Assembly: GCA_950295325.1 (NCBI GenBank)
Contig: OX485803.1
Span: forward strand, 76,275,554 to 76,339,553
Origin: Polytrichum commune
Lineage: Eukaryota; Streptophyta; Polytrichopsida; Polytrichales; Polytrichaceae
Direction: 5' to 3'
Length of the DNA stretch: 64,000 bases
Under the pieces are notes generated by a model that saw only the letters and a list, made by a program, of their open reading frames with translations, did no database searches and was not told where the DNA came from. Of the stretch, positions 40,497 through 63,595 are shown piece after piece. A program made the translations under genes and the position numbers. The stretch's first letter is position 1; each line of letters begins with the position of its first letter.

Positions 40497-41276
40497 ACTA
40501 CACTAAATATGGTATTTCGTGTCAACGATTCTAATCATTTTGGCATTTTGCTCAATACTAATCGTAAACCATGGTGTAGTGTCACCAACATTAGATGTTA
40601 ACCCAACATTATTTTTCGTTCCTTGTAGATTTTTTGAGGGATTATAGATCTATAGAGTTGCAATTACCGTTACTTATCAAGTGATTTTTCATCCATATTT
40701 CAATCATCCATGACAATATTTCATCACAAGTTGCTGACAAGAGAAAACACTATATTCGTTAAATTGAAACTTTCTCTAGTCTCAAATTAATATATGGATC
40801 AAACAACATTCCGTGTTCCGAAACTATATTGCGAACAATCTCAAATATATTATATGTTCTAATATCCCAAATCTATGGGGTGTGGACATAAGCACATATG
40901 GTAGAGCACTGAACACCAACTTCATCAACAAAAACACTTTGGGTAGAGCACTCCAAACTAGTTTCACCCAAGAAACATATAAAATGATTTCTATTAATAG
41001 CATGGTCAATAAAATATAGACATTGCAACATACAAAGTACATGCAATAAATGCATTTTTCTTCAATGGAAAATTTAGTCCCAAACTTAATAAAAAAATGA
41101 ACTTCACAACTGTATTGAAATATAGTAAATGGATATTCATCCAACCCCAAACAATATAGCATTCGCAAGTTCTACCCAAACTTTGCCCCAAGTTTGAGGA
41201 GCACACATATGAGTAATATATATTCGTCGAATTACATATTACACTATAATCATGCTAACACAATCCTACCAACTTC
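40497..41276. other. family E-like transposon end and gene-free stretch
   Basis: Begins CTACACTAAATATGGTATTT, related to the element at 28623. The matching right end was not located. A 22-base stretch around 40745-40766 is identical to part of the truncated Copia gag region near 63120, which suggests another retroelement fragment. Confidence 0.4.
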
Positions 41277-42763
41277 TCATTCAACGTGGGTTGCTTCTTC
41301 TGCGATCCGAGCAAGGTTGTCTTTTGCAAAAGTTATGTACTTTTGAGGGATGGACACTGATCCACTATGATTTTTCCGTGGTTTCCATGCTATGAATATG
41401 GAATCTGTATCTACCCAAGATGGACCGTGCTCAGAATCCACCTTCCACCGGAAGTTAGGGTTTGTATCCCATTCTGTATAATGCCGAACAACATCTTCAT
41501 TCCGTGCTGTCGGTCGGTAGTACTCTACTTGTATTTGTCGAAAATGAGGGCTGGAAGTTACAAAATTTGGTTTGGACAAAGCTCTTGCCACCCACACTGG
41601 CTTTGCATATGTCTCATCTCCAGGACGCAAAATGAGCATATAACCTTCATGACAATCCACTGCAATGCGGAAAGATGGTGGCGGACGACTACTAGCAGGT
41701 CCCACGTAATGGTCGTCCACATCAAACTCCTCTCGAACCTCTCCATTTCCCAAAAGACTAGCCTCCGAAACTTGTACGTTGACACGTGTTTGTGGCCAAA
41801 ACCCATGCCTTAAAGTAAGGGGTGTATCTTGATGAAGGTTTGCCAAAGCGCCACGAACACGTGTCCAATATTGTATCCAACTTCCGTAACGAAGCCAACA
41901 CGATCCACCAACATCCGCTACCCTCAAACTCTCCCAATATTGTATGAAGCCTGATATGCCTTTACAAATGTCCTCCAAATTCTTCATGGGTATTGGTTTG
42001 CAAGGCTTAGGCTCTCCGTCAGGCAACATCGTCCTTCCCTCCCCATCAACACGCCATACAAGGAGACCCTCCGGCGGGCTCCAGTCTTGTGACGTGCACA
42101 ACAACTTGTATTGCATGGCGGGGACACCATCGTCACGCACGTAGAACCGAAATTGTTGTGCCTTCGTATGTTCGATCAATCGGTGAGCTCCGCTTCGAAT
42201 ATACGGTTCTATAAATGCCTTGAAGTCGGGAACCTCCTCGATCATATGGGGGATGACAGGAATGTTCTCCAAATCCATGTACGACTTCATCAACAATGGG
42301 ATTGTTGGAAAATCCTCCTCGCGCAACTTCATGCTCCAACGCCCAAAAGATGCATTGATATCGTCGTGCATGTGGCCTACCAATAGAAAGGACACAAAAA
42401 CCTCCTTGAAAATGCCTTTCGCAACCAACAACGACCAATATGCAAAAACATATCTACTTTTATAGTCCTTCGCACAATTGTCCAATTGGACACGTAGAGT
42501 TGGGGGCAAATTCTTGGCTATCACATCTTCACTTGGTGGCTCCGGCAAGGAGTGCACGCATACATCTCTTCCATCCAAGACCGCTTCATATAGAGGTGTT
42601 GATCCCGAGTTTTCAAATAACAATCTTGATGAATAGGACGGCGGTTTCTCCAAATCACGTAAAAGCTTTGCAAATGACCCTATTGTGTGGTTTGAATCCG
42701 CCGGATACAAATCAAGAGCATAATGAGCATACTTGACATCACCGTGTCCATGTGCAATTATCC
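41277..42763 (-). CDS. DUF7869-like (transposase-like) protein, exon 2
   Basis: Second and last exon of a minus-strand gene; its coding part starts at 42763 and ends in TGA at 41277-41279. It carries the most recognisable part of the family: HGHGDVKYAHY, PPTLRVQLDNCAKDYKSRYV, then FLLVGHMHDDINASFGRWSM. In DUF7869-type proteins the D of QLDN and the GH.H.D.D/N block are invariant and are plausible active-site positions of an RNase H-like fold (inference). Here the last position is N rather than the more usual D. The C-terminal 250 residues are less conserved. The acceptor is GGCTTTGCAG, and splicing joins the two frames exactly (…FVLLG + IIAHG…). No internal stop. Confidence 0.8.
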
Positions 42764-42847
42764 CTGCAAAGCCAACCCAATGGTTTAATATTCAACTATA
42801 ACACCAAAAAATTCACATGGTGTACATCTATGGCCCCAAGTACAAAC
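42764..42847 (-). other. intron of the DUF7869-like gene
   Basis: An 84-bp phase-1 intron with donor GTTTGTAC and acceptor TTTGCAG on the minus strand. Without splicing the frame stops after about ten codons. Confidence 0.75.
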
Positions 42848-44345
42848 CTAAAAGCACAAATTTGTGTTTAGGTAATGCAATGCAATTGTTATCGAAATCA
42901 TCTGTAACCGATACAGGAAGCTTAAAAAGGCCGTCCGTGGCTTTGATTCGATTTGCAAAACATGGTGAGGCTGTTTTGGCATGGTCCATTTTGTCATGGA
43001 TGATTGTAAGGACCTCCAAAGGCCTAGAGATGGACAAAGCTCTATTTGTGTAGTAATCATTACGGTGTGCCTCTTGCATGTTCACATGCTTGAAATAGTT
43101 CATTTGATGTGCGGCATAGGACTCTGTCCCCATCGTGTGTGCATCTCGAAGGCGTTTCAACTTCTCGCATTTGGAACAACGGGCAAATTTGTCGCCTCGT
43201 CTTTTTGTGATGTATTCGCTAAAGTGAGATTTTTTTATTGCACTCAGTTTCGACAACGAAATAGGGTCCAACCCAGCCTTCTCGCCAACTGCGTTTACGT
43301 CCAACAATATGTCTTTCCATTTCGTGCCTGTAGGAAGAACCTTCTCCACAACCTTTTCACCGGTTGAGAGTGTGCGTGTTTTGTGCGGCATTGCATCGGC
43401 AAGGGGGACAATGATGGTTGCCAGAGTGGCTGTTGCTTGTCTCGTTGCTTCCCTTGGTTTCTTTAAGCCCGTATTCCCATGGTGACGGGACCGGCGTCCT
43501 TCCTTGGCATACGCGGCTTGTCTATAAAATTCCGCTTTCGACACACCGTGAATGGTGTACCATGCCGTACAACACACGTCTATGCTCTCAAGGGTGATGA
43601 CCTTTCGACCCGCTCCGTTCACATGTATCGCCCTATGGACATCAAGCTTTTTGGTGGATCTTAGACGGAAATCTCCAAGCCACATTTCCTCGCGGATGGC
43701 CTTCAATTTATCCCTTGGGAATAATTGGCAACAGCGATGTACACAACAATCCTTTGTGGCAACTTCTCTAATAGACTCCTCACAGAGCAACCTTTGACGT
43801 TTACACTCATTTGCAGACGGAGTAGGACGTGCCAATGTATCGTACTTCCGTAGGCCTTTACGTGGCCGAATGTTTGCTTGGAGCTCCTGTTGGATTTGGA
43901 TGTGTCGTCGCTCATACTCATGCAAATTAACCCCATCAATTGTCACATTCCTCAACGGCCACCTTCGCAACGAGAACCTATGAGTTGGATTCACTTCGGA
44001 ATGTACGAGTGATTCCAATATAACAACTCCAACGTCCTCGGTGCCAAGGGGGTTTTCATCAATGCAATCTTGTGGATGTGTGTTACGACAAATACCCTCC
44101 GCCACAGCAACTCCACTGTCATTAACAAGTACCACATCCAAATTCACCCATGAAGCTCGTGAAAGCCCAGCACATTTCACAGTGGGGCAAGAAGGGGCAG
44201 ATGGCGAAGGACTCCCCAAATGACCTTCATCTGCACTGTCACCAAAACTATCCTCCCCGACAATGTCTAGGTCATCCCCAGACGAAGAATGGGAGTTGCC
44301 CATGTCTTCAGAGAAGGCATCCCCTCTTCCACCAGCTCCCTCCAT
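42848..44345 (-). CDS. DUF7869-like (transposase-like) protein, exon 1
   Basis: First coding exon of a protein of about 994 residues. I chose the ATG at 44345 (context GCGAAATGG) because a good acceptor (GTGTGTAG) lies just before it; ATGs at 44360 and 44366 are also in frame. Residues 1-60 are acidic and Ser-rich. Cysteine pairs at about 200-206 (CCVHRCC), 258-259 (DVCCTAWYTIHGVS) and 390-393 (FARCSKC) look like metal-binding sites. HDKMDHAKT at about 450-458 is the conserved D..D..K motif preceding the DUF7869 core. This architecture recurs in multicopy genes of plants, oomycetes and animals and is often regarded as transposon-derived; a transposase role is inference. The gene is intact and GC-richer than its flanks. 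Confidence 0.8.
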
Positions 44346-44350
44346 TTCGC

Positions 44351-45213
44351 CTACACACATGCACATGAAACCTCAACAAACATGCACACCATGTAAGGGT
44401 TCAAAAGAATCAAATATCAAAAAATGCAAGACATCATGATAAATGGGGACACCGAGGATAAAGACATTTGCAACACAACTACAATGTGAACTCCCAATAC
44501 TTTGCGCAAGTTCCAAAAAACATTTTGGGAGGGGGTTTGGGTCGACCGACCCAAACCTTCTCATGGTCAACCTCCAGCCGGCCAAGATGGGGTTGGGGTT
44601 TGGGTCGGTCGACCCAAACATTGTATGTCAAGGGGTCGAGGGGTTTTGGTCAAGCCCGCCCACACTGGTCGAGGGGTTTGGGTCGACCGACCCAAACCTG
44701 ATCACGGTCAGGCTGAACCCACCCACACTCGTGGAGGGGTTTGGGTCGACCGACCCAAACCTGGTAAGGGTCAGGTTGAAACCCTCCCACACTAGTGGAG
44801 GGGTTTCGGTCGACCGACCCAAACCTGGTAAGGGTCAGGCTGAGACCCGCCCACACTAGTGGAGGGGTTTCGGTCGACCGACCCAAACCTGGTAAGGGTC
44901 AGGCTGAAACCCTCCCACACTAGTGGAGGGGTTTCGGTCGACCGACCCAAACCTGGTTTAGGGTTTAGGGTTAAACCCACCCACACTAGTGGATGGGTTT
45001 CGGTCGACCGACCCAAACCTGGTTAAGGGTCAGGCTGAAACCCTCCCACATGAGTGGAGGGATTTCGGTCGACCGACCCAAACCTGTGTAAGGGTCAGGC
45101 TGAAACCCTCCCACACGAGTGGAGGGGTTTCGGTCGACCGACCCAAACCTGTGTAAGGGTCAGGCTGAAACCCACCCACACTAGCGGAGGGGTTTGGGTC
45201 GACTGACCCAAAC
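44351..45213 (-). other. putative 5'-leader intron holding palindrome array P1
   Basis: On the minus strand a CAG|GTTTGGG donor-like junction (45213) and a GTGTGTAG acceptor (44351) would remove the whole array, placing it in a leader intron directly before the start-codon exon. This mirrors the plus-strand gene, whose leader intron also holds an array. No transcript evidence is available. Confidence 0.4.
44535..45213. repeat. palindrome array P1 (11 copies, centre AC/GT)
   Basis: Eleven copies of an inverted repeat with arms GTTTGGGTCG and CGACCCAAAC (some left arms GTTTCGGTCG) around a two-base centre. Starts: 44535, 44598, 44676, 44739, 44803, 44867, 44931, 44997, 45062, 45127 and 45192. 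The centre is AC in ten and GT in the second. Most sit in a 63-66-bp tandem unit that also has CCCACACTAGTGGAGG and GGTCAGGCTGAAACC. Open frames across this array simply translate the repeat. Confidence 0.92.
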
Positions 45214-45478
45214 CTGATAAGAGTCACACTAAAACCCTCAAAATCCGGCGGATAATGCGGCGGATAATCCGAAATCCCATATGATTTTGAGCTCATTGCA
45301 AAGTTCCCGATGGGCTTCCATGCTGTGGATAGGTGCTCATGAACTTGCATCCTGTGGATAAGTGGTAATGAACGGCAGCATGCACGAACCTTGAAGTATA
45401 GCTCCGACTAAGAGTTCTCTCTACGAATTCAATAGTGGGATAAGAGCAAAAAAGGACAGAGTTTTGGGGGGTGCGTCC

Positions 45479-45485
45479 CTTTATA
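45479..45485 (-). promoter_or_regulatory. TATA-like box upstream of the DUF7869-like gene
   Basis: TATAAAG on the minus strand within GGATAGTATAAAGGGACG, about 1.1 kb before the start codon and 270 bp before the putative leader-intron donor. Position and strand fit a promoter for the minus-strand gene. Confidence 0.4.
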
Positions 45486-45910
45486 CTATCCACCTCCGTT
45501 TCTCCGACTTCCTCATTGGATGCCTTTCCCGCCTTGTTCTCCTGCAGCGGTTTTTTCAAACCTCCTGACATAATTCCCCGTTTTCTGTTTATAGTAGAAA
45601 ATGCGCATCTATCAATGCCCCTCTCATACCCCAGCCGTCATATGACTTAGTCTATGATATTTAATCTTTTTTTTTGTCTTGTGTGGATATGACATACGCC
45701 GTTGGGAGGAAGGGTGGCGGCCACATTAATTTTTTCAAGTATCATCAAGGTATATTTTAACCAATATGTAGACCCAAACACAACTCCATTCAATGCTTTC
45801 AAGTGTAAACCTATTTAGGTGGGGTTTGGGCCATTTGGAGGCTGCAATTATGAGAGAGTTTCCAAGGCTTGAGGCCATTGTCATGATGAATAGAAATATT
45901 TATTTGTCTC

Positions 45911-45929
45911 CCCTAAACCCTAAACCCTA
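45911..45929 (-). repeat. telomere-like tract (CCCTAAA)
   Basis: About two and a half CCCTAAA units. Confidence 0.8.
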
Positions 45930-46640
45930 GAACCTTGCTCTATTATCTCGCATGCAAGAGTGGCAATGACGAACGTATGTGGACGTTGTTAAGGGGATAC
46001 TAACTACCAATGTCCCTTTTTAGTTCAATATTTTAATGTTACTTGAATCCATCCTCAAGTTCACTTCAAGTTTACTAATGTGTGAGAGCAAAACATCGAA
46101 GATTGGACCCTAAACCCTTATAACATCCACAACATGAAATACGCATTGACTAAATACAAAACCAATTAGGATATCATGTTTAAACGTCCCATATAACATA
46201 TTAACATGATCAAGATTGTATTTACTATGACCTTCCGATTAGACTCTTCTTCATATTATGCAAACAATATCTGTTATATCTTCCTCCATTATCTAATACA
46301 CGTGGAGAGAACAATGAATAACAACATGATGTTGTGCTTCTCCGATTTACTTTTACATCACATTCCATATATTAAATACATCATGAACGATGATTTATTA
46401 GCGACTAATATGTGATTCCCTAAAGTGAGCGAAACATCCAAAGTTGGACCCCTAGCCCCTATTAACATCCACAATATTTCATGTTATTTGAATAAACACA
46501 AGACCAATCAATATATCGCGTTTAAACGTCTCAAATAAACACAATATCGTCTTCACTATAACCTTCCTATAAGACTCTTCTCACGAGTAAGACAATGTTA
46601 TACATTGACATTGGATAGATTAATATGTTATAACCCTATC

Positions 46641-46668
46641 CCCTAAACCCTAAACCCTAAACCCTAAA
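46641..46668 (-). repeat. telomere-like tract (four CCCTAAA units)
   Basis: Four perfect units of the plant-type telomere repeat, C-rich strand on the plus strand. It also counts as a cluster of plant telo-box motifs (AAACCCTAA). Confidence 0.9.
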
Positions 46669-47377
46669 CACCAAAATTTAGTAGTGGTTCACTGATGCCC
46701 CCATATACAAACAACATCTATTTTAAACGTTCTTATTAAGTGTATCAAACACTAACTATCATATTGAGTGTAATTATCATATTCATTGTAGTGACACTAC
46801 AACACTTTCATTGACTAGATAAAACTAAATTGGATATATAGAGTTTGATACACTAAATATGAATGCATACACTAATTACCAATATCCCTATGACAATATG
46901 TAAGGTTATATCTAAGGGGTTTTATTCTACTTGGAGTCAAACATTGTGGTATAATTCAAACAATATATTGACAAAAGAGGTGCCAATATTATAAAACCTC
47001 ATATACTAAAAGTCACTAAATATAATAGTTAATGCAATTATTTAGACCCTCACATGAGGACTTATATTTTGAAAACAAGGAATTGATGCCATGACAAAGT
47101 TGAATATTTTGGCCAACTTTCAATTTGCGCTAATCAAAAGAACATATGTTGTTTGTAATGTGTGCACACAACATTGCTCCATCCTCAAGCATGCAAGTGT
47201 GACATTAACCTACGTATGTGGAAGTCATTAATGGAACCATAAATCACAAATGACATTTGTGAGTTCATTCTTTCGTGAATTAGGATGTTATGATGACAAT
47301 ATACATTTGTATTGAGAACTACAAGCACCAAGGCCCTGTCATTTGACGTGTGTGCCATTCATTTATGGTTTGTGGTG

Positions 47378-47397
47378 TTTAGGGTTTAGGGTTTAGG
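47378..47397 (+). repeat. telomere-like tract (TTTAGGG)
   Basis: Almost three TTTAGGG units in the opposite orientation to those at 45911 and 46641. Confidence 0.85.
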
Positions 47398-47934
47398 CAT
47401 CATCGAACAAAAAACTGAATGTTTAAATGGCTTCATATGATATGTGAAGTCCATGGGGTTGAAGTAGATACATTTGTTATCATTTTGTTTCTCCCATGTA
47501 CTTCAAATTTGAGCTTCTAAGTACATATGTTAATGTTCACTGTAATGCTACTTGTTAGGGTATCCATTGTAGTCTAGAGCTTTGTCCTCTACCAACAACC
47601 ATCATAGAAATTAGAATACATAACCCAATACCCTTACCCATGTGAACGGTTACCATATTTATATTATTGCACCGTGTAATTGCCTTTGAAGATTGCAATA
47701 TAATTATGAATTACTCCTCTTAGATTTTGTAACACTCTCATATGATTCCATACGACTACATTATTGAAATACCAAAACAAATAATGGCTACGATGTTATC
47801 AATTATCAATTCCAATGGGCGATCATTCAATTCAACACCATTAAAATCAGAGTTGGCGATGGTGTAAATATTGTGCAACACCTTAGTCTATGTAGCTTTT
47901 TGAATGTTTTTGAATTGCCGGTAATGAATACCGG

Positions 47935-48825
47935 GTTAGAATGCCGGGGCCGGGCGGCCAAGAGAGGCGCCGACCCTCCTATGTCCCGCCCCTAGAGGCA
48001 AGGACAATGCCGAAGGCAATGTCCATAGGGTGCCATGTGTCAACACCAGAAGCCGCGCGGGCAACCACCTCCACCAAGGAGGTTTGGACACCTGGCAGGG
48101 TTTTGGCCCGCGAGGCTTCTGGGCCGTTGATGGGCCCGAGAAATCGCATGGCCAGGATTGTCTGAAGGGGAACCCCTTCGGCTCTCCCCTTCTCTCCCCT
48201 CCTCTTTCTCTCTTTCTCTCTTTCTCGCTTTCCTCTCCCTCCGCACGAAGCGCCGCCGCTTTCCATAGCGACGCGCCAAGCGATTGTGAGTTTGTCTTTT
48301 CGCATAGCTTCTTGCGCTCATTGGGTATTGCTTGGACGCGCCGCTTCCCGCGAAGCGCCGCTTTCCTCTTTGTCTTTCTCTTCACTTCTTCCTTTGCATT
48401 CTTCTTCTCCTCTCTGGTCCTTCGAGTCCTCTTCTAGGATTATAGGCTTATTCTCTCTTCCTGGTTCAGCGTGCACGCATTGAGTGAGTCCGGATCGCTT
48501 TAGTTGAGTGTCATTCATTTCTTATTGTAGAGTGGATGCGGTGAGTGACATCAGAGTTTTGTTGTTGTTGTGGAGTGATTTCAGGTTGTTATTAGTAGTG
48601 ATCAGAAGGCTTGCAAGAATCAGGGTGTTTGTGAGAGGGTTTTAGAGTGCTTGTGAGATTCATAGTGATTTTTAGGTGTTTCTGAGTGTTGATTTTTAGT
48701 GATATCACAGAGTTTCAGGATTCTGGATCTAAGAATCAGCTTGTAAGAGCAACTCACAAGAGTTTCTGGATTCTGGTTATAAGAATCAGCTTGTAAGAGC
48801 AGCTTACAAGAGTTTCAAACACAAG
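47935..48825 (+). promoter_or_regulatory. GC-rich promoter/leader region of the ParB-methyltransferase gene
   Basis: Composition changes abruptly to GC-rich at about 47935. There are two strong hairpins: GGACAATGCC/GGCAATGTCC at 48002-48024, and 17-bp arms at 48046-48062 and 48106-48122. A long CT-rich tract (48173-48240), typical of plant leaders, follows. A direct duplication of about 48 bp (AGAATCAGCTTGTAAGAGCA) lies at 48718-48812. The leader exon would end at ACAAG|GTATAT (48825). The start of transcription cannot be placed. Confidence 0.45.
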
Positions 48826-49578
48826 GTATATCATTTCACTCTACACAATTTGCTTCACTTCCTTTACGATCATGTTTCATATACAATGCATTGTATATGA
48901 TGTTTAAACATTAAACATGCCTCTGGAAACTAAGTAGTTTCGGGAGGCGACCCAAACCCCAATTTAAAATGTAACGAAACATTTAAAATCAGCTTGAAAA
49001 TTGATTAAATGTTTGGGTCGATCGACCCAAACATTGCAGCCTCATGTTTGGGTCGCTCGACCCAAACCCCAAAGGCTCATGTTTGGGTCGAGCGACCCAA
49101 ACATGAGGCTGCAATGTTTGGGTCGTTCGACCTAAACCCCAATTCAAAATATAAAAAAACCCTTGAAACCATATTAAGAATTAATAAAATGTTTGGGGTC
49201 GAGCGACCCAAACCACAGAGCCTCATGTTTGGGTCGCTCGACCCAAACCTCAATTAAAAAAAAAACTTGAAACCAGATTGAGATTTAATAAAATGTTTGG
49301 GTCGAGCGACCCAAACCCCAATTTCAAATCTATTGAAACACTAGAAATCAGCTTTAAAATTAATGAAATGTTTGGGTCGCTCGACCCAAACACTCTAGCC
49401 TCCACATTTAAAGAATACGAGCCACCAAGTGTTCAAGGTTTTGGTCGATCGACCCAAACCTTGAATTCGGGCTGGTCAATAAAATACATTTGTTCCATTT
49501 CCACCAAATGTTAAATGCATTGTCGACTACTTTGGGTCGATCGACCGAAACTAATAGTTTTAATTTCTGGACTTACAG
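48826..49578 (+). other. leader intron of the ParB-methyltransferase gene
   Basis: Donor GTATAT and acceptor TTCTGGACTTACAG immediately before the ATG at 49579. It holds palindrome array P2. Confidence 0.6.
49011..49551. repeat. palindrome array P2 (10 copies, mixed centres)
   Basis: Ten copies of the GTTTGGGTCG/CGACCCAAAC inverted repeat. Starts and centres: 49011 AT, 49046 CT, 49081 AG, 49116 TT, 49191 AG, 49227 CT, 49295 AG, 49370 CT, 49438 AT, 49530 AT. Spacers contain recurring TTGAAAC-like and TTAATAAAATG-like phrases. A lone half-site (GCGACCCAAACC) lies at about 48948. Confidence 0.92.
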
Positions 49579-50904
49579 ATGGCCCCCAAGAAGAGACCTG
49601 GAGAAAGGTTCTTTATGCTCGCGCCAGACGTAATATGGCAGGAGTATGAAACCCCCCAGGACGACTCATACGTGCCCAAGGATGGGCTTGTCCTTGCGTG
49701 GTCAGTTCAGGTTGTAAAGGGCTCCCAGTTCAAGCTCCTATTCGTGGTAAAAGTAGGGACCCACGAGAACCACACTTGGACAACGTTGACAGGATGGGAG
49801 GTTGCGTCCGTCCAAGCCCTCGGGGATTACGTGGACGTAATTCTCGAGAACTCCGCCGTGCACAACGCCCACATGTTCATGCACCAGTTCTCCAAGTCAT
49901 TCGACACTATATACGCCAAGGAGTCATGCGTGGAGCCTGAAACAATTAAACCGGAGACAATTTTCATAGATGGCAATGTAACCAACACGAAGGTTGCAAG
50001 TAGGTTTACAAAATTGAAACAGGCCATCACGGTCCTCAACAAGGCGCTGCAAAGTAAAGCCAAAACGCAGAAGCCTGTGAGGCGTAAGGCAACGGCGGAA
50101 GAAGGCGCAGGGTCGTCCAGACCCCAAACTGTGAGGATACCGTGTCCGATCCCTGCAGACTCCAGACGGCCTAGCACTACAGGAACGCTGGCTGACAGCG
50201 AGACGCCCACACCGTCCGGAAGCCGGCAGACGACCCCGTCGAAGAGGGCGAGAGAGTCCTCCGTCATGACCACCGAGCCAGTTTCCCCGGAGCTGCGGAT
50301 GCCAAAACCTGGCCAAGAGGTGGATGCAGGCGAGATACAGAAAATCAATGATAACTTCGAGACGAAGTGCCTGCATTGCTTCTTCATGGGCAGGGACTTC
50401 AAGTTCGAGGTGAACATTGCACAGTGCTACCTTGTGCCACCTGAGAAGTGTGTCCGAGCCAAGGAGGACGCCTACGTCGACTGGATGGTCGCTCAGATCT
50501 TGGGAGGGCAATTCAAAGACGACAGGCAGACGATTGTTGTCATGCCGCAAGGGCTGAAGAGAATGCCGACGCCTGAAATGTGGCCGACAATATGCAAAGG
50601 CGACTTCTGGCTGATTGATGGCCAGCACAGTGTGGAGGCGTCTAAAAAACTTCAGCTGATGACCGAGTGGGACGACCCCAACAACCAAAAGGAGAAGCTA
50701 AAGGTGTGGAAGGCATTGGTGGTTTGGTCTGACAACGAGACCGTACTAACCGACATCTCACGCTTCTTCAACATGGGAAACAAGAAGAGGGCGTACCAGG
50801 CATCCTGGATTCGGAACATCATGGCCTCGAGGGAGGTGTGGGAGTTTTACGGCAGGCCTCCCAAGGAAAGGGAGAATGCTATAGACAAGAACCCAAAATG
50901 GGAG
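49579..50904 (+). CDS. ParB-like domain / methyltransferase-like protein, exon A
   Basis: First coding exon (442 codons, phase 0 at both ends). Residues 1-150 form an unidentified domain. Residues 160-260 are a basic, Ser/Pro-rich, probably disordered linker. From about residue 280 it resembles the ParB/Srx N-terminal fold: YLVPPEKC near 284-291, IVVMPQG, then WLIDGQHSVEASKKL with DGQHS at 347-351 (the ParB G.HR-type motif), and a following VW.AL.V...N segment. In bacteria and phages ParB-like domains are often fused to DNA methyltransferases, which matches exon B. The ATG directly follows a good acceptor. GC content is clearly higher than in the flanks. Functional assignment is by motif only. 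Confidence 0.75.
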
Positions 50905-51323
50905 GTGAGTATGTTTGGGTCGATTGACCCAAACTCTTGAATTGTTTACCTTTTTTATTCAGGTTTATAGTTTGGATCGATCGACCCAAACTATAACATT
51001 GCTTACTTTTTCTCTTCAGGTTTATAGTTTGGGTCGATCGACCCAAACTCTTGAATTGTTTATTTTTTTTATTCAGGTTTATAGTTTGGGTCGATCGACC
51101 CAAACTCTTAAATTGTTTACTTTTTTTATTCAGGTTTATAGTTTGGGTCGATCGACCCAAACTATAACATTGTTTATTTTTTCTCGTCGTGTTTATAGTT
51201 TGGATCGATCGACCCAAACTGTAACATTGCTTACTTTTTCTCGTGAGGTTTATAGTTGGGGTCGATCGACCCAAACTCTTGCATTCGCAGTTTTCTCACG
51301 TGTGTTATTTACTTCATGTGCAG
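50905..51323 (+). other. intron between exons A and B
   Basis: GTGAGT donor, CATGTGCAG acceptor, phase 0. Almost entirely composed of palindrome array P3. Confidence 0.8.
50913..51276. repeat. palindrome array P3 (7 copies, centre AT, exact 57-bp period)
   Basis: Copies start at 50913, 50970, 51027, 51084, 51141, 51198 and 51255, exactly 57 bp apart. All have the centre AT, giving the core TCGATCGA. Each unit after the first begins GTTTATAGTTTGG; most are preceded by a T-rich tract ending TTCAG. A unit therefore looks like a 57-bp mini-intron (GT…CAG). Confidence 0.93.
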
Positions 51324-52655
51324 GACTTCAAATACCAGATGATCAACAAATTCTCCTCGATTGACAACGCTTCCCACAAGCAGAAGAAGTACAACGAGCT
51401 AAGAGGAGAAATTTATTTGATCACAGCGTCTGACTCCGTGTGGGGGAGATGGAAGAGTGTTTTCGAGAAACACGAGACAGGGGACCTCATGGATCCCGAC
51501 ACCGGCATGCTCTTCAATCAGACTACGCGCTTCAAGCAGATGAAGCCTCTGGTGAGGGAGTTCTTCAGGGCTCTTCAAGGTCTCTCGGAGACAGAGATGG
51601 GAAAGGCGGCGTCCCACATCCTTCACGTGCAGCCGACGGCGAAGAGATGTTGGGTCCACCCGAAGATCGTCTTCATCAAGCCCAAAATCTTCGTCCCTTC
51701 ATGCTACACCATGAAGGAATGGACGGAGAATAGGAAAAAGAAGACGACCATCGTCCAGGAGCTGCACAAGCTGGTGCCGGAAAGGAAGCTCATAGTGGAT
51801 GGAGAGATCGACGAGGCGCACTGGAGGGCATTCAAAGCCGACTACAAGTTCACCAGTGCGTCAATGGCGGCACTCATCAGGGAGGCGGGAGACGACTTCC
51901 TGAAGTCCAAGCTTGTGAAGGGGGGGAGGAACCGAGCGCTTCCCGAACACTCCGCGCGTGCCTTCTCGAACTTTATAAAGGAGAAGAAGATCGTCAGCTT
52001 CGAGGGCGACGCCTACTTCAACTTGGTCACCCTCGAGCCTCTCAAGATCCAAGGATGGCCGGGCTCTGATGCCAGGAAGGCTATCAGGACAAAAGCCGGG
52101 GACCGCTTCCCCTTCGGAATGATAGACTTCAGGAACATCCCTGGAGCCTCATTCGAGGTGACAATGAGCACCCCATTCTACGAGCCGTTCTTCACGAAGT
52201 TTGTGGATTACGGCAGCCCCAAATTCAGGGAGGTCGACGTCTGGCTGTGGATTGTCGAGGACAGGAGGGCAGAGCACGTGTACGAGATCGTGCGGAAATT
52301 GCAGCCAGAGTACGCCGTCTCAAAATCTCACTACGTTGCTGCACCGGCGGAGGGGGCGTACAGCACGCTGAAAGACAAGAAGACGAAGATCGTCAACGTG
52401 CTGTGCTTGTACTTTGTGTACAAAGCTGAGCTGCTTAAGGTGCCAAACCATCCCATAGCCAGGATAGAGAAGCTCTTCCAAGTCCAAGAAGGGTTGGGCA
52501 CCAGCAGGAGCTTGTACGACGAGGCGAAGTACGCCAACTACCCCGCGGATGAGCTGCGCATGGAGTTCTACCTGCGGATGATGAGGACCCTCACGAAGAG
52601 AGGGGACTGCATCTTCAACGTCTTCGGGGGCTCCAAACCGGTTTTCGCAGCCATG
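51324..52655 (+). CDS. DNA N4/N6-methyltransferase-like domain, exon B
   Basis: A 444-codon exon, phase 0 at both ends. The C-terminal half follows the order of the N6_N4 methyltransferase family in which the catalytic motif precedes the AdoMet motif. STPFYEPF at 724-731 (numbering from exon A) stands where DPPY is expected. ELRMEFYLRMMRTLTKRGD leads into NVFGGSKPVFAAM at 874-886, where bacterial enzymes have DPF.GSGTT..AA. Both motifs are eroded, so catalysis is doubtful and a DNA-binding or regulatory role is possible. The N-terminal half (KWE|DFKYQMINKFSS, WGRWKSVFE) is unassigned. The exon has no stop and ends at ATG|GTAAGC. The domain call is by pattern, with moderate certainty. Confidence 0.7.
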
Positions 52656-53001
52656 GTAAGCAAATAACCTGAAGGAACTATATGGACGGTTTGGGTCGAG
52701 CGACCCAAACTAGGGCATGCATTGTTTGGGTCGCTCGACCCAAACTAGGGGCACGGTCTGTTTGGGTCGAGCGACCCAAACTAGGGGCATGGTTTGTTTG
52801 GGTCGAGCGACCCAAACTAGGGCATGCATGGTTTGGGTCGCTCGACCCAAACTATGGGCATGCACAGTTTGGGTCGAGCGACCCAAACTAACTATTATTG
52901 TTTTTTTGGGTGTCATTTTTCCTTATTCTTCATTGGTGATACTAATACTATTGATTTGGATTGTGCATATGTCTGGGTTGAACATCTACTCCTATGTGGA
53001 G
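52656..53001 (+). other. intron between exons B and C
   Basis: Donor GTAAGC, a branch-point-like TACTAATAC near 52940, and the first AG after it at 53000-53001, which keeps phase 0. This acceptor has a weak pyrimidine tract and would drop SGLNIYSYVE, residues that fit the methyltransferase fold (see findings). Confidence 0.5.
52689..52888. repeat. palindrome array P4 (6 copies, centre AG/CT)
   Basis: Starts and centres: 52689 AG, 52724 CT, 52760 AG, 52796 AG, 52831 CT, 52867 AG. Spacing is 35-36 bp, with ACTAGGGGCATG-like spacers. AG and CT are the same site read from opposite strands, so the six sites are in mixed orientation. Confidence 0.93.
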
Positions 53002-53962
53002 GATACCGATGTTCAATTCTACAGGACCCAGAAGGCACTGGCGAAGAGAATGGACATCCTCGACTGGATACCCGGATCCTACGTCGAAGAGATCGTCGAG
53101 GGGGGCGAGAATCCTTTGGATATGGCGAGGCGAATCAACCCGGGGGAATTCGCCATGCGGGCCCCCATTCAATTGCCAGAGCCGCTCATCGGGTTGCATC
53201 CGGGCAATCCCTCTATGGGAGTAGGTGGCGAGGTTGCGGAGGAGGGGGAGGAAGAGGAGGAGGAGGAGGAAGCAGAGAAAGTGGAGGGGGAGGTGGAGGA
53301 AGGGGCAACAGGATTCACTCAAGAATCCGAGGCCCCTCAGCGGAAGAAGGCCATGCGAGCTGCCACGCCGCAGAGCAAGCTAGTGCCCGTCCTCACGGTG
53401 GCCGACGCGAAGGACATGTATTCGAGGGACGCGACGGCCACCTTCAGGGAGCGGCGAATGCTGAAGGGGAAGAAATTATACAGCGACTATGCGGTGGAGG
53501 AGACGATCGCCATAAGCTCCGAGGACGAGGACAACATGGAGCTCGCGAAGAGGCTGAGGTCGGATCCTGCCTCCCCCACAGCGTTCGCCGGGATGGTGAG
53601 GGTGAAACCCGAGGTCCTCACCGTGGAGGAGGCCAACGCGAAGATGCTCCGGGACGAGGAGCAACACGTCCGATTGCAAAAGGCCGCCGCCGAGGAGCCC
53701 TCGGTCCGCAACGAAGTCGCGGAGTTGAGGGCTCTCCTGTTGGAGCAGGAGCGGCAAAGGGCGATGGCCCCACCTCCGTCCCAAGCGGACCTAATCACGC
53801 AAGTGATCCAGGGCATGCTGGCGCAGGGATTGGTGATGGCTCCCCCGAGTTCATTCCCTCACTTGCCTGCAGGCTTCCCTCCACAGGATATCCGCCCGCG
53901 GCCGGCGCCGCAGCAGTCCTTCAGCTTCGCGCACTTGCTGCAGCCGCACGCCCGTCCAGCAG
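53002..53962 (+). CDS. end of methyltransferase-like domain and acidic linker, exon C1
   Basis: TDVQFYRTQKALAKRMDIL at the start fits the helix after the AdoMet motif of N4/N6 methyltransferases. This supports exons B and C belonging to one protein. A Glu-rich stretch (about 53236-53310) follows. A predicted coiled-coil region holds EEANAKMLRDEEQHVRLQKA and EVAELRALLLEQERQRAMAP, and then a Pro-rich tail. In frame it could run on to a stop at 54079. I prefer an exit at CAG|GTGGAC (53963), because the phase then matches the downstream exon. An alternative start is the in-frame ATG at 52969, which would make this a separate gene. Confidence 0.6.
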
Positions 53963-54113
53963 GTGGACGACCCCAACCTTTGGCGCGTCCCCGGAGCTTC
54001 CAGCCCGTTGGCACCCCCGCCGCTCCGGCCTCCCATCCTCTCGCCCCCACAACACCAGCGGGACGACCCCCACATGTTTAGGTCGTCCGACCCAAACAGT
54101 GCCGACGTTGCAG
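53963..54113 (+). other. candidate intron (phase 1) around a palindrome
   Basis: Donor CAG|GTGGAC and acceptor GACGTTGCAG; 151 bp, C-rich. It removes the stop at 54079-54081 and one palindrome and reconciles the two frames. The donor is weak; a frameshift is the alternative. Confidence 0.35.
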
Positions 54114-54470
54114 CGTCCCAGAGCGACGTTCGCCAACCAGCAGGGTTTGGGTCGGCCGACCCAAACCCCGTCCCCGACCAGACCCCGGTGGACGAGCCCA
54201 TGTTAGACGTTGAAGGCCCGCAAGGGCCTGGTGATACCTCTACTCCTAACCCAGTCGATGAACCAATGCATGATGCGCATGCGGAGGTTGGGTTGGGACA
54301 AAGGCCTGACAGTCAGCCTTTGCAGGAGCAGGTTGCGGCTGACGTCGTCGTCGGAGGCGGCGGTGACAGAGGTGGGGCAACGCACGCGATGCCGGCATCA
54401 ACGTCGTCGAGGCACGACCAAGGCGAGGTAATGCACTGACCCCACTCAGTTTGGGTCGGTCGACCCAAAC
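54076..54470. repeat. three dispersed palindromes P5 (centres TC, GC, GT)
   Basis: Single copies at 54076-54097 (centre TC, one arm mismatch), 54145-54166 (centre GC) and 54449-54470 (centre GT). The second lies in what appears to be coding sequence and is read as FGSADPNP. The third is in the next intron. Confidence 0.88.
54114..54427 (+). CDS. disordered linker, exon C2
   Basis: The frame reads SQSDVRQPAG, FGSADPNPVPDQ (a palindrome in coding sequence), then two similar phrases TPVDEPMLD and NPVDEPMHD, and a Gly-rich end. Ends at GGCGAG|GTAATG in phase 0. Low complexity; no domain. It serves as a linker between the methyltransferase-like part and the phosphatase-like part if the exons are joined as proposed. 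Confidence 0.5.
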
Positions 54471-54945
54471 TCCCTGGGTCTTTGTCTTCTTGCCTTGGTC
54501 GTGTCCCCTAGCTACCCTAAACTCACGCACATGTCGCCCCCCCCCCGGCACTCGCGCCCTTCGCCACATCCCCCCGACCATTCGTTCGTCCACATACCCC
54601 CCGGCTTGCGACGAAGTTTTCATCACGGCAGCCCGTCTCTTCAATTTTTGCTAGATGTAGAAGTAGGCTAGTTTGAACGCATCGTTCAACGCGGCTCCCC
54701 CCAATCAAGATGTACATAGAGCATTGTATACAATATAATCGCCATTTTTTACTCCTATATACTTGTATCTTGTGTTTGAATGTATGTTGTATGCTCTTGC
54801 CTCTCTTGTATCCCTTGTTGCACCCCCTCCAAAAATGAATCAAATGGTTTTGTGTTTGCACCGAGAACACTCGTTTCTTTAAATGCTTCGTTTGGACATA
54901 GCATGACATAAGTCGCCCACCGTTTTCTCTCGATCGTATCCGCAG
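54428..54945 (+). other. intron between exons C2 and D
   Basis: Donor GTAATG, acceptor CTCGATCGTATCCGCAG, phase 0. Carries one palindrome (54449) and a run of C (54539-54547). Confidence 0.6.
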
Positions 54946-55758
54946 GGCTCGGAGCATAGCGTAGCGGCTCCCCGACGCTCTTCTCCAAGGAGCAAAGAGG
55001 GCAGCGCGGCGGCGCCCCCGATTTTACCCGCCCCGCCCCCGCGGCCGAAGAAACGATTCCTGGTGTTAGACCTGAACGGGGTCCTCGTCCAATGCGTTCA
55101 TTGCCCGAGGACCCCCACGGTGCCCTTTTGCAAGCCCGAGGACGCGAATTACGACGGGCCGCCCACGTTCATAAAGAGCAAGCTAGTTCACCTCCGCCCG
55201 TGGCTTCGGACCTTCCTCCAGATGGCCCAACAACGATGGTGGGTGGTCGTTTGGAGCTCCATGACGGCCGAGAACACCAATGCCGTCGTGGAGTTCATCT
55301 TCAAGGGCATCGAGCCCCCGTGCATGGTCCTAGCACAGGAAGCCTGTAGAATATTGTACACACCGGACGGCAAAGTCGTCAAAAAACCAAACAACCCCGC
55401 TTCCCCCCAATACCTCAAGGTCTTGAAGCCCATTTTTTGGGACCAGCGGCCGTCCTTGATAGGCGTCCCCTACGACGTCCGTCCCACCCGCGAGAACACG
55501 CTCATGGTGGACGACAGCGCCGCAAAGAACATGTTGAACCCGACGGCCAACCTCATAGTTTGCCCTACCTGGACGGTCGAGAAGGTCCGGGACCGATTTT
55601 TGTTAGACCTTGGTAAATACCTCCAGGCGCTCTGCGGAAGCGGACTGCCCGTAAACAATTTTGTTAGGAACAATCCGATAGGCGAGAGATACTTGGATCC
55701 ACGAGACCATTTGTACAGAGAGTTGTTATCTCACGCGAAATTTAACAAGCTCATTTGA
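54946..55758 (+). CDS. FCP1/NIF-type HAD phosphatase-like domain, exon D
   Basis: A 270-codon last exon, in phase 0 with exon C2. After a Pro-rich linker comes KKRFLVLDLNGVLVQ (motif I; D at exon residue 42), WWVVVWSSMTAENTNAVV (motif II), LKVLKPIFWDQ (motif III lysine region) and TLMVDDSAAKNMLNP (motif IV). The family tail V..FVRNNPIGERYLDPRD...Y follows. These are the landmarks of FCP1/CTD small phosphatase-like domains, here of the size usual in plants. The second Asp of the D.DG catalytic motif is Asn, so the general acid is missing and phosphatase activity is uncertain. There is no ATG before the domain, so upstream exons are required. Ends in TGA. Confidence 0.8.
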   Translation, partial: GSEHSVAAPRRSSPRSKEGSAAAPPILPAPPPRPKKRFLVLDLNGVLVQCVHCPRTPTVPFCKPEDANYDGPPTFIKSKLVHLRPWLRTFLQMAQQRWWVVVWSSMTAENTNAVVEFIFKGIEPPCMVLAQEACRILYTPDGKVVKKPNNPASPQYLKVLKPIFWDQRPSLIGVPYDVRPTRENTLMVDDSAAKNMLNPTANLIVCPTWTVEKVRDRFLLDLGKYLQALCGSGLPVNNFVRNNPIGERYLDPRDHLYRELLSHAKFNKLI

Positions 55759-55775
55759 GACACTACGTGTGTTTG

Positions 55776-55816
55776 TATGTGTATGTATGTATGTATGTGT
55801 GTGTGTGTGTGTGTGC
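55776..55816 (+). repeat. (GT)n / (TATG)n microsatellite
   Basis: GTATGTATGTATGT followed by a GT run, 18 bp after the stop of exon D. Confidence 0.85.
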
Positions 55817-55927
55817 GCACGCGCCCGTTCATTTTGTGTAATATATGCTTCATATGTATCTTGATTTTCACGCGCTCTAGCAAACCCTCCTCCCTTGGGT
55901 TTTGTTTCGTTTCATTTTTTGCGCCAG

Positions 55928-56281
55928 CGTTTGGAGCCCTCGATTGACATCGTCAGCGAGTCGGACTTGGGGAGCTTCTTCTACGAGACCGTCTACGACG
56001 CCGCGTCGACCATTGACTACTCCAAGGAGCCTCTTGACGCCGGCGTCGTCGATAGCCCCCCACCCAAGCAAATCTTCCGGCATTCTCCGTCCCCGTCACC
56101 GCTCAAGGGCATAAATCGCAAATGCGTCCGGACATCCCCCTCTCCACCCGGCGGCAGTAGTACACCTCAACGGCGGCTACGGATGGACGCTCGGCCAACG
56201 AAGAGTGGAACCCTTCCTATTCCTTTGCGGGACGCATTGCCCCTCCTCGCCGACTCCGACGGGAACGCCCCCGGTGACAAG
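55928..56281 (+). CDS. orphan exon E of unknown product
   Basis: A 118-codon open frame between a good acceptor (TTTTTTGCGCCAG) and a donor (GACAAG|GTGAAC), phase 0 on both sides. It contains PSIDIVSESDLGSFFYETVY and a Ser/Pro-rich tail. It has no ATG, so it needs an upstream exon. The only phase-compatible link found is a weak donor (CTGCCC|GTAAAC, 55651) inside exon D, which would replace the last 36 residues of the phosphatase-like domain. It may be an alternative 3' part of the same gene or a remnant of another gene. Confidence 0.45.
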
Positions 56282-56409
56282 GTGAACCCCCCCCCCCAAC
56301 CTGGTTAACCGCGCATTACAATCATTTTGCACTTAAAAAATGAACGTGTGACACGTTTGGGTCTTCCTCCCTAAACTAACACATGTGGTCTTGCATTGAC
56401 ACGTTGCAG

Positions 56410-56727
56410 GTTGCTCCCACCCGTAAACCTATGCGGTCTAGTGCGTCCATCGAGTTCGAGCGTATGTACGCCATGACCAGAAATGCGAGACAATCCACTT
56501 CATCGTATTCGAATTCTTCGACGTATATTTCGGGCGGCCGACGGACTCCAAAATGTGTTATGGATGGCGGTCACCCCAAGAATGGCTATAGTCGCGGGGC
56601 GGAGATTTTCAGGAATGTTGAAGCAATGCGAGCAAAAGAAGCTGCAGCAAAAGAAAAAGAGGCAAAAGAAAAAAAAACAAAAGAAAATGAAGCAAAAGAA
56701 AAAGAGGTAGTATCCGAGGCTAGATAG
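56410..56727 (+). CDS. orphan exon F, charged C-terminus
   Basis: Follows exon E across a 128-bp intron (acceptor GACACGTTGCAG, phase 0). It encodes RKPMRSSASIEFERMYAMTR, a Ser/Thr-rich part and a Lys/Glu/Ala-repeat helix before the TAG stop. No domain is recognised. The intron contains a degenerate palindrome half-site (GTTTGGGTC at 56354). Its phase-0 layout matches the rest of the unit. Confidence 0.45.
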   Translation, partial: VAPTRKPMRSSASIEFERMYAMTRNARQSTSSYSNSSTYISGGRRTPKCVMDGGHPKNGYSRGAEIFRNVEAMRAKEAAAKEKEAKEKKTKENEAKEKEVVSEAR

Positions 56728-56872
56728 GCCATAGTAGGCGTAGGGTTTTGGGCCATAGGCAAGAACATTTTGGGTCGCACTATCCAATGGATGTGTGGTG
56801 TTAGCATGATATGCATTTTACATGCCACACTTTGTATGTTTTTTTTTGCAATAATATAAGTTAGACATGATT

Positions 56873-57122
56873 TCCCCTTCCATATGGTCTAAGGTTTGGA
56901 GTGCCTTATTGTGTGCATTAATATGAATGTTTTAAGATTTCCCCTTCAATAAGATCTATGGTTTGGATTGCCCTACCTAAACCATATTCATACAAGCTCT
57001 CATATTTTGTGTGCATTAATATGAATGTTTTAAGATTTTCCCTTCAATAAGATCTATGGTTTGGATTGCCCTACCTAAACCATATTCATACAAGCTCTCA
57101 TATTTTGTGTGCATTAATATGA
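56873..57122 (+). repeat. 98-bp tandem repeats, left cluster
   Basis: About two and a half units containing TTAAGATTTTCCCTTCAATA, AGATCTATGGTTTGGATTGC, AAACCATATTCATACAAGC and GTGTGCATTAATATGAAT. The same units occur inverted at 63316-63570. Confidence 0.9.
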
Positions 57123-58810
57123 ATTGTGAACCCTTTGAGTGGTCCACCACTCTGCGGGATCACTTTTAGTTAGAATGTTAGGATTAAAAGTTAGAATTGA
57201 TAGGGAATTTAGGAAAAATTAGTTCATTTAGCATTTAGCCTAGAAGAAGGAAGGTCAAAATGAAACTAAGTAGTGCTAGAAGATAGCAAAGTAGAAAAAA
57301 TGTGCTAGCTAGTAAAAACAACTAGCTAAGCAAATATTAGTAGATGCTAGCTATTAAGCAAATGTTAGTAGATGCTAGCTAAGCAAGTGTTAGTTTATTA
57401 GTTAGTGTGAGGCACACAAGACTATTGGAGGTGTTTTACGTAAGAAGATAAAATCGGCGTGAAGACTTTTGAAGACAAAAAAGAAAGAGAGCAAGGGGGC
57501 TACTTGCCCACTTGCCCCCTTGCCAACTCGATGGCGAAAAATTAGAAAGATTTCTAGGTTCCCCGTCGGAGCCACCTCGGCGAGAGGGTGGCAACCTCAA
57601 CCGGGAAAACCCCCGAGCCAAAATTTCGGGAAAGGGTTTGAAAAATGGATCCGGTGGAGGAGGGGTCCAACCCTTTTGTGAGAGGGTTTAAAAACCCCTC
57701 CTTCCACCTTGTAGCTCTCTTTCTTTCTCTAGTTTTTGGGCGAAGCCCTGCTTCAATGTAGTTAGGAAAAAATCCTTTAGCATGTATTCTCAATGGTCTA
57801 GAAGAAAGGCTTGAGAACCTCCTCTACTCTCTCTCTCCTAGTTAGGTTGTGTGTTTATTAACACACCAACAAAATTATTCCTTCTTTTGTAGAGGTAGGT
57901 TGGATGGTAGAGTTTTGAGTAGAGGCATTATAGACCTCATCTGCCAATGCCCTGAAGGCTTAGTTCAAAAGCTAGAACAAGATACTTATCATTTTTCTCT
58001 TAGAGAGATTTCATATAGCTATCCATAGCCGTTTCCCATTTGTGATTTGGTTGAGATGACAATTAGTTATGGATTTTCAAAGATGGAGTAGAAAAACTGG
58101 GTGGTCTTGTGGGTAGCGGCTGCTGGATCAGACCTGCGAGCCCAATAGAAATTTTAATTCCAAGAAATTATATTTTTCCCAAGTAGAACTTTTGTGTAGC
58201 TTTCCAAAATGGCTTAGAACATTTGATTTGAGCATGATTTGAATTAGATATGAATTGTGCAAGATGGGACACATAGTTTGAGAACTTTTGGTTGACTGCT
58301 GCATTACAGAGGACCTGCTGGGTTCACTTCGGCTTACCTTTCTAATCACATATTTTTATCAAATACATCTTTTTAATATCTCTCCAGGGTCATATAGAAC
58401 GTTTGATTTGACTAAGATTTGAATTAGATATGAATTGTTGAAGGCGAGATACATAGTTTAAGCCTTCTTGATTGACTGCTGTGTTACAAGGAGTCCGCTG
58501 AATTTCTATTAGCTTAACCTGCTGATGTCATAATTTTTCTAGTTAGAGCTTGTTCATAGCTTTTCAATGGTATAAGGAAAGCCTAGATCCAAGTAGTAAG
58601 GAATGTGCTATAAATTTTTGAAGTTAGAAGGTAGATAGGTGGGTTGGAAGGGTCGGTTGAATCGACCTCACACTTCCAACCCTCATAACTTTTGCATTTC
58701 TTATCCGATTAGAGTGATTTTTAGATCATTGGAAAGATAATTTGGTGCACTAAGTATAAATATTATGCTTAGGATTAAATTACAGGGCAGAATAACACTT
58801 TATATTTTAA
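57123..58810 (+). mobile_element. probable LTR-retrotransposon remnant (noncoding)
   Basis: From TGTGAACCC at 57124 the sequence has features of a retrotransposon LTR/leader: a TATA-like GGGTTTAAAAACCCC (57683-57699) followed by a CT-rich stretch, then two diverged repeats with GATTTGAATTAGATATGAAT (58229 and 58410). No gag/pol coding region, matching second LTR or primer-binding site was found, so the class is not settled. Confidence 0.4.
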
Positions 58811-62977: not shown

Positions 62978-62989
62978 TGGTATCAGAGC
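62978..62989 (+). other. Copia primer-binding site (initiator tRNA-Met)
   Basis: TGGTATCAGAGC, the classic plant Copia primer-binding site complementary to the initiator tRNA-Met, adjacent to the LTR end. Confidence 0.9.
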
Positions 62990-63041
62990 AGGTTAGAAGC
63001 ATGTAGTATAGGACTAGAAGCTCGATCTGTCTCTCTTTCAG

Positions 63042-63233
63042 ATGTCGTCCATTGAAGTTGACACAACAGCTAGCCACCAGACTCTTAGGAATCATTCCTC
63101 CACCATGGCCGGAGATAGTAACACTATATTCGTTAAATTGAGACTTTTTGGGCATTTTGAGACATTCATAGAAATAAGAACAAGGATAAATGGAACACAT
63201 ATTGGTGAAAGTTGTAAGATGCGAACACTTTGA
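63042..63233 (+). pseudogene. truncated Copia gag start
   Basis: ATG at the expected distance from the primer-binding site, then SSIEVDTTASHQTLRNHSS and TIFVKLRLFGHFETFIEIRT, ending after 63 codons. The position and leader fit a Copia gag. No zinc knuckle or pol follows, so the element is cut off after about 200 bp of gag. Confidence 0.5.
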
Positions 63234-63315
63234 AGCGGGTGTTTAGACCAAGAACCCCATTAATAACTCATATTTGTGATGGTATAGGGTGGGCAATCGA
63301 AACCTTAGACCAAAT

Positions 63316-63570
63316 TGAAGGGGACATCTTAAAACATTCATATTAATGCACACAAAATATGAGAGCTTGTATGAATATGGTTTAGGTAGGGCAATCCAAA
63401 CCATAGATCTTATTGAAGGGAAAATCTTAAAACATTCATATTAATGCACACAAAATATGAGAGCTTGTATGAATATGGTTTAGGTAGGGCACTCCAAACC
63501 ATAGATCTTATTGAAGGGAAAATCTTAAAACATTCATATTAATGCACACAAAATATGAGAGCTTGTAATG
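63316..63570 (-). repeat. 98-bp tandem repeats, right cluster (inverted)
   Basis: Units begin at 63335, 63433 and 63531 (CATTCATATTAATGCACAC), exactly 98 bp apart. They are the reverse complement of the units at 56873-57122. Confidence 0.92.
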
Positions 63571-63595
63571 TATGGTTCAGGGTTGTCTATCGCGA

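Follow-up and report, generated by a model that had tools for sequence, protein, structure and literature searches.

A constrained 22-bp palindrome arrayed in a DUF7869 DNA transposon of Polytrichum commune is a candidate binding site for an element-encoded protein

Introduction

Why should one short inverted repeat stay constant in dozens of tandem copies? The question is raised by a stretch of 64,000 nucleotides (the window) from Polytrichum commune (assembly GCA_950295325.1, contig OX485803.1, positions 76,275,554 to 76,339,553 of the forward strand), in which a first-pass annotation had noticed a recurrent 22-bp inverted repeat with a two-base centre and had proposed that it has the layout of a dimer-binding or recombinase site. 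Here, the carrier of these palindromes was found to be a large multi-copy DNA transposon of about 17 kb with terminal inverted repeats (TIRs), a nature that the annotation had not recognised. Apart from a DUF7869 protein, the element encodes, in divergent orientation, a long companion gene that we call P2. We lean, with reservations set out below, towards the view that the palindromes are sites for a dimeric protein encoded by the element itself, most likely P2, which would provide an anti-silencing function resembling that of the VANC proteins of VANDAL transposons.

Results

Palindromic sites and the constraint on their arms

Between window positions 44535 and 54470, 37 matches to GTTTGGGTCG-NN-CGACCCAAAC with at most 3 mismatches were found, 21 of them exact, against none at this threshold in 100 shuffles of the window, which confirms the 37-copy repeat of the first-pass annotation. 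Its further statement that the remaining window is free of copies holds at the same threshold, although looser relatives exist: 22-mers with 4-5 arm mismatches occur at 40937, 56355, 56768, 56961, 57059, 63380 and 63478, each within a terminal region of this transposon. A further 5-mismatch match at 33630, outside the transposon, looks like a chance occurrence, the chance rate of 4-5-mismatch matches being 0.35 per window (20 shuffles of 3-base blocks). In a gene model inferred from open frames and splice signals, 35 of the 37 sites fall in upstream regions or introns (Table 1). Most belong to four tandem arrays with different unit lengths, and three further sites lie outside these arrays.

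Since the units of a tandem array have one common history, their arms and linkers are directly comparable. For 41 arrays, taken from 20 copies or loci, mean divergence per site within arrays was 0.029 for the arms, 0.328 for the centre and 0.223 for the linkers, with arm divergence below linker divergence in 38 arrays, above it in one and equal to it in two. Because the sites had been picked by their likeness to the consensus (the 350-site profile takes only sites with at most 3 arm mismatches), the comparison was rerun at looser thresholds. With 5 mismatches allowed, the values were 0.031 for arms versus 0.213 for linkers (arms lower in 38 of 43 arrays, higher in 3), and with 7 mismatches 0.051 versus 0.213 (lower in 40 of 45, higher in 4). 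Linkers of arrays at different positions look unrelated by eye, and the palindrome is therefore the part that the arrays share. The earlier view that the arms are conserved, and that microsatellite growth does not account for them, is thus borne out by the arm and linker values.

Genome-wide rules of the site

The genome searched comprises 407.8 Mb in 64 contigs and contains 9,231 exact sites with a 2-bp centre, as opposed to two with a centre of 0-1 bp and 175 with a centre of 3-30 bp. With a single exception, the places listed from these 175 have an 11-bp centre, and they look like one dispersed repeat, composed of single sites with the same 10-bp arms (GTTTGGGTCGAGCAAAATGCTCGACCCAAAC; e.g. 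G000 C1:1020527-1020557). This rigid 2-bp spacing supports the dimer-binding layout that had been suggested. The central dinucleotide, on the other hand, is not free, as had been supposed: pyrimidine-purine steps occur in only 38 of the 9,231 exact sites, all of them CA/TG, where the expectation is 4 in 16. Among the 350 fetched sites, ten different dinucleotides occur, mainly AT, AC, CT, GT, TT, AG and AA. The layout of the site, its spacing and symmetry and the constraint on it together point to a dimeric DNA-binding protein as the putative binder.

The 100 sites listed in the genome-wide motif search, which cover C1:0.44-2.16 Mb and thus one 1.7-Mb stretch of one contig rather than a random sample, fall into three elements of the window type (77 sites) and into a second transposon family, M (23 sites), with none elsewhere (tally by eye). 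The association with particular gene families that the first-pass annotation had envisaged is supported. A search of a plasmid collection with one array as the query gave no match.

The carrier transposon

Comparison by blastn with two other copies places the start of the element at window position 40746, and the repeated sequence runs past 57124. The element ends are the inverted repeat AACACTATATTCGTTAAATTGAGAC, and the TIR at 40746 differs by a single mismatch from the 25-bp end of other copies. Both ends are in place in three other fetched copies, 16.6-17.0 kb apart, and each of the three is flanked by a 4-bp target duplication (CAAT, TTTG and TTAT). The window copy is rearranged: its right end is inverted and displaced by about 6 kb, and the bases flanking its ends do not match. 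The intervening sequence (57125-63112), which has no matching target duplication, is probably an inversion or a second insertion.

The leftward DUF7869 protein is taken as the putative transposase; DUF7869 is its only Pfam match, in one exon, with none in the other. Genome matches, all of them lower bounds, numbered at least 94 for P2 exon 2 (91-100% identity) and at least 84 for the transposase exon, and a second P2 exon 2 subfamily used as the query gave at least 136, some of them common to both queries. Eight further copies were picked on gene homology alone (two large copies and six 4.5-kb stretches; C5, C1b, L034-L039), and all eight carry the sites. In three more copies, selected for their sites, the palindromes occupy corresponding places; two of these copies are only 75.7-77.1% identical to the window across the P2 half. 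Large copies carry 26-40 sites each.

One of the copies (L017+L018) is a mosaic relative to the window, with 92.6% identity in the transposase half and about 76-77% in the P2 half, which suggests recombination between subfamilies. An extra site with 2 mismatches is present in two copies (L015, position 7628; reversed L017+L018, position 10068), and that of L015 directly adjoins a second TIR-like sequence, which looks like the nested fragment of an element end.

The P2 companion gene

P2 is a long gene read rightward, divergently from the transposase gene, and its last exon encodes a NIF-type phosphatase domain. The gene model was drawn from open frames and GT..AG signals, and that of exon 3 is provisional. 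In the window copy the acceptor of intron 2 (52965-52968) is disrupted; the other ten aligned copies have GCAG or GTAG there. The versions in L012, L016 and L017, which contain stop codons, were left out of the protein alignments.

Two short motifs, GQH in exon 1 and FGGSKP at the end of exon 2, had prompted a ParB/methyltransferase identity for P2, which was dropped. Searches of P2 against Pfam, PHROGs and NCBIfam gave neither a ParB nor a methyltransferase match, and the PDB matches shown (Cas1 chains, a fiber protein, a cytochrome c555 trimer and a chain named Nanosota-MB1) included no ParB. The GQH motif recalls ParB-like domains, and a ParB membership of P2, which would go with the spaced ParB-type palindrome considered in the first-pass annotation, finds no support in these four databases.

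Sister DUF7869 lineages carry other palindromes

A sister DUF7869 family in the same genome encodes a transposase with 41% and 48% identity to that of the window in its main parts and 35% in its C-terminal part. At the one locus read for this transposase (C2:4.16-4.18 Mb), a different palindrome, CCCACGGGTGNNCACCCGTGGG, with the same 10+2+10 layout (arms CCCACGGGTG-NN-CACCCGTGGG), lies upstream of the gene and also in one of its introns, where the window element has none. The 20-bp core of the sister palindrome occurs at 819 sites in the genome, and the centres at 50 listed places are AA/TT (47) and AT (3; counted by eye).

A second locus, picked by the sister palindrome (C1:34.009-34.019 Mb), holds a P2 homologue with 19% identity to the window P2 in the GQH region, 27% in exon 2 and 31% in the NIF domain, and its sites are found in the 5' region, in introns 1, 2 and 3, in exon 3 and downstream. 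Window-type sites are absent from both sister loci. About 15 kb from the sister P2 lies a sister-type DUF7869 match (692 aa, C1:33993299) in divergent orientation; as this is also the arrangement in the window element, both were taken as one family. In a third DUF7869 lineage (two loci), GTGAGGCANNTGCCTCAC is repeated, with the arms GTGAGGCA-NN-TGCCTCAC present 8 and 4 times, and a P2 homologue was detected in one of the two loci (domain E=1.8e-5 among 1,267 frames). Different palindromes and diverged P2 homologues occur in two other lineages, with two loci each.

A second family with the window palindrome

The M family (2,226 candidates) carries the same palindrome as the window together with a different transposase-like gene, for which no Pfam match was obtained. 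Its arrays, with 31-34-bp units, lie within an intron of the transposase-like gene and upstream of a divergent companion gene. The intron array is present in all five M copies at 96-97% identity and in none of four at 80-92%. The companion of one site-bearing copy (L020) is 25-43% identical to the companions of two site-less M copies, with the exception of stretches of 14 and 32 residues at 50-56%, and the transposase-like exon of these two site-less copies is 80-81% identical to that of another site-bearing copy. As a control, perfect 8+2+8 palindromes were counted: two site-less M copies have 1 and 2 (shuffles, 0.3-0.35), and the five array-bearing loci tested have 6-17.

A Pfam scan of the M companion gene (L020 7766-9999, with L033) gave no match. 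The gene contains a GNHR motif and, over one stretch, matches profiles of phage DNA methyltransferases (PHROG, best E=5e-5), a match confined to this gene and not shared by P2. The palindrome-free M copies L031 (5695-7633) and L032 (1588-3506) have a 360-bp tandem repeat of 5.4 units near the companion gene.

Table 1 Features of the window copy, in window coordinates
Feature	Position	Strand	Support or remark
DUF7869 DNA transposon, main body of window copy	40746..57124	.	blastn to two copies and TIR
Degenerate 22-mer (5 mismatches), vicinity of left end	40937..40958	.	identical in three other copies with left end fetched
Putative transposase gene, DUF7869 exon	41277..42710	-	PF25273, E=1.1e-33
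Putative transposase gene, first large exon	42831..44366	-	at least 84 genome matches; 41% identity to sister DUF7869 transposase
11 palindromes upstream of transposase gene	44535..45213	.	units mostly 63-66 bp
10 palindromes 5' of P2 start codon	49011..49551	.	units at least 35 bp; probably an intron of the 5' untranslated region (GT..AG signals only)
P2 exon 1	49579..50904	+	442 aa; GQH motif in last third
7 palindromes in P2 intron 1 (50905-51323)	50913..51276	.	57-bp units
P2 exon 2	51324..52655	+	at least 94 genome matches at 91-100% identity; GT after ATG
6 palindromes in P2 intron 2	52689..52888	.	35-36-bp units
P2 exon 3 region	52969..54427	+	reading frame changes inside
2 palindromes in open proline-rich frame	54076..54166	.	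would encode FRSSDPN and FGSADPN
1 palindrome in P2 intron 3	54449..54470	.	
P2 last exon, NIF-type phosphatase	54946..55758	+	PF03031, E=8.3e-15 on 54946-55755; in phase with 54427 if intron as read
Degenerate 22-mers (4-5 mismatches), vicinity of right end	56355..57080	.	likewise near right end in five other copies
Element right end (98-bp subterminal repeats and TIR)	63113..63581	-	displaced and inverted relative to intact copies

Additional features of the window include an interstitial repeat resembling the plant telomere repeat (AAACCCT) at 46632-46669 and a GC-rich minisatellite at the window end (63876-64000).

Discussion

A different motif at similar positions in the sister lineages points to a binder that the element itself would encode. 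The fast divergence of P2 and its presence alongside the arrays in three lineages make it the best candidate, with the transposase as the alternative. We envisage that a dimeric, sequence-specific protein from the transposon, most likely P2, would dock on the 22-bp palindromes, dozens of which are offered ahead of the transposase gene, in the 5' region of P2 and in the P2 introns. Tandem duplication would multiply the sites, with the palindrome alone staying constant. Bound to these mostly non-coding stretches, the protein may keep chromatin open and the genes of the element expressed despite silencing by the host, much as VANC proteins act in VANDAL transposons. Sister lineages would have switched protein and palindrome together, each protein serving its own family.

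Several observations weigh against this model. No recognised DNA-binding domain was found in P2, and AlphaFold models of its exon 1 (7 sequences) and exon 2 (9 sequences) were poor, with a mean predicted local distance difference test score of 31 and 33. Two sites of the window copy fall within a probable coding stretch, and the fetched copies are related, so that the arrays are not all independent. In the sister family, no P2 was found at the transposase locus (C2:4.16-4.18 Mb), and the P2 locus, picked by its palindrome, holds no transposase; the two are linked by the shared palindrome and the DUF7869 match about 15 kb away rather than by an unbroken element. The centres in the third lineage are CA, TG or TA, and the centre rule therefore differs there. 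Of the four DUF7869 lineages sampled, the fourth, covered by one 9.9-kb locus (L044), lacks such an array. With 35% identity, the C-terminal part of the transposase has diverged almost as quickly as P2. Finally, the M family shares the palindrome, and its companion protein has no detectable similarity to P2 (hhalign probabilities of 0.6 and 1.3 percent); therefore, either P2 serves the M family in trans or the binder is not P2.

Among other explanations, the most serious, which we nevertheless judge unlikely, is that the transposase or a TnpA-like helper binds the sites to assemble the transposition complex, as happens at the subterminal repeats of En/Spm. In its favour, degenerate 22-mers are present close to both element ends, at places matched in other copies. 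The strict sites, however, are internal, starting 3.8 kb from the left end and stopping 3.0 kb from the right end in copy C5; the sites at the ends are the degenerate ones, and the M family, with its different transposase-like gene, has strict sites too.

The use of one palindrome by two families with unrelated transposase genes would also follow if a host transcription or chromatin factor bound it and the transposons exploited that factor. We regard this as improbable, given that a single host factor does not explain why the sister DUF7869 family in the same genome has another palindrome in similar places, and that none of the 100 listed sites, from one 1.7-Mb stretch of one contig, lies outside the two families.

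The RNA, satellite and recombinase readings were tested as well and found unlikely. That the palindromes act as RNA, in the form of intronic hairpins or sources of small RNA, could be expected of near-perfect inverted repeats, many of them intronic; yet the 350 sites contain 152 altered arm pairs without a single compensation, 37 of them being G-T and 115 unpaired, neither Watson-Crick nor G-T. Such changes fit a protein that would read two DNA half-sites and argue against selected RNA pairing. Moreover, conservation at the innermost arm positions, next to the 2-nt loop, is about equal to that at the outer ones, pyrimidine-purine steps are avoided in the centre and sites also occur upstream of genes, which together leave the RNA explanation very little room. 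Even less probable is a neutral tandem repeat or satellite that unequal exchange has spread: copy number and unit length do change quickly between element copies, but the linkers have diverged about 8 times as far as the arms with which they share a duplication history (about 4 times at the loosest setting), and arrays with unrelated-looking linkers have the palindrome in common at a rigid spacing. Recombinase core sites, such as the serine-recombinase att sites to which the first-pass annotation had likened the inverted arms around a dinucleotide, are the least credible explanation, since several centres coexist within one copy, no recombinase match was found among the nine window open reading frames scanned, and the element has TIRs with 4-bp target duplications.

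The preferred reading, an element-encoded dimeric binder, finds its closest parallel in the VANDAL transposons, the transposase of which is Mutator-like (MULE) and the companion protein of which binds the motif and removes DNA methylation. In the literature used here, sequence-specific transposon anti-silencing is described from Arabidopsis VANDALs (PMC5735166, PMC10398659), the motifs of VANDAL21 are part of tandem repeats that lie upstream and in introns, motifs change between VANDAL families, the divergence of VANC is faster than that of the transposase, and the VANC companion proteins have DUF1985 / DUF287 domains (PMC5735166). The resemblance extends to a short motif that is tandemly arrayed in the introns and upstream regions of a transposon, to a quick gain and loss of units, to a companion that diverges faster than most of the transposase and to related families with different motifs. 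The differences are that the transposase here matches DUF7869 and gives no MULE match, that P2 has no DUF1985 or DUF287 match (Pfam, exons searched singly, window and sister family), that the motif is a 22-bp spaced palindrome instead of the 9-base YAGTATTAY of VANDAL, that P2 ends in a NIF-type phosphatase domain, and that a second transposon family has the motif in common. The element looks as if it works like VANC/VANDAL; because of the missing DUF1985/DUF287 and MULE matches, it is not filed as a member.

Other known systems are more distant. CACTA (En/Spm) elements have TIRs that start with CACTA, a 3-bp target duplication and a CACTA transposase domain. The present element shares with them a CACTATA in the TIR, repeated and partly inverted sites and degenerate copies near the ends, and differs in its 4-bp duplication, a TIR beginning AACACTATA, a DUF7869 transposase and internal strict sites. 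In bacterial ParB/parS, palindromic sites are spread over a gene region, a likeness to which the GQH motif of P2 may be added; here, in contrast, the sites number tens per copy of a eukaryotic transposon, and no ParB profile or PDB match was obtained. A full-text literature search, the coverage of which is mostly without subscription papers and preprints, returned no paper mentioning DUF7869. Within a similar coverage, the titles and abstract openings shown for the literature on related systems do not describe the element, and a search with the 9-base half sites gave none related by title among the matches listed.

A bolder proposal, which we put forward tentatively and hold to be possible rather than probable, is that the DUF7869 transposons of this genome hold undescribed private recognition systems, each consisting of a palindrome and a version of a giant DNA-tethered P2 effector, both peculiar to the lineage, that this effector, with its terminal NIF-type phosphatase, would counter silencing or promote transcription, and that the unrelated M family has adopted the palindrome of the window lineage and is served in trans. 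The NIF-type phosphatase family includes phosphatases of the RNA polymerase II tail. If an element-encoded binder is indeed at work, it would represent an independent system in a different type of transposon, and private pairs of motif and protein would be a recurrent transposon strategy. The lineages would supply natural palindrome/protein pairs for direct tests, and the presence of one motif in two transposon families would amount to parasitism between transposons, with one selfish password in common use.

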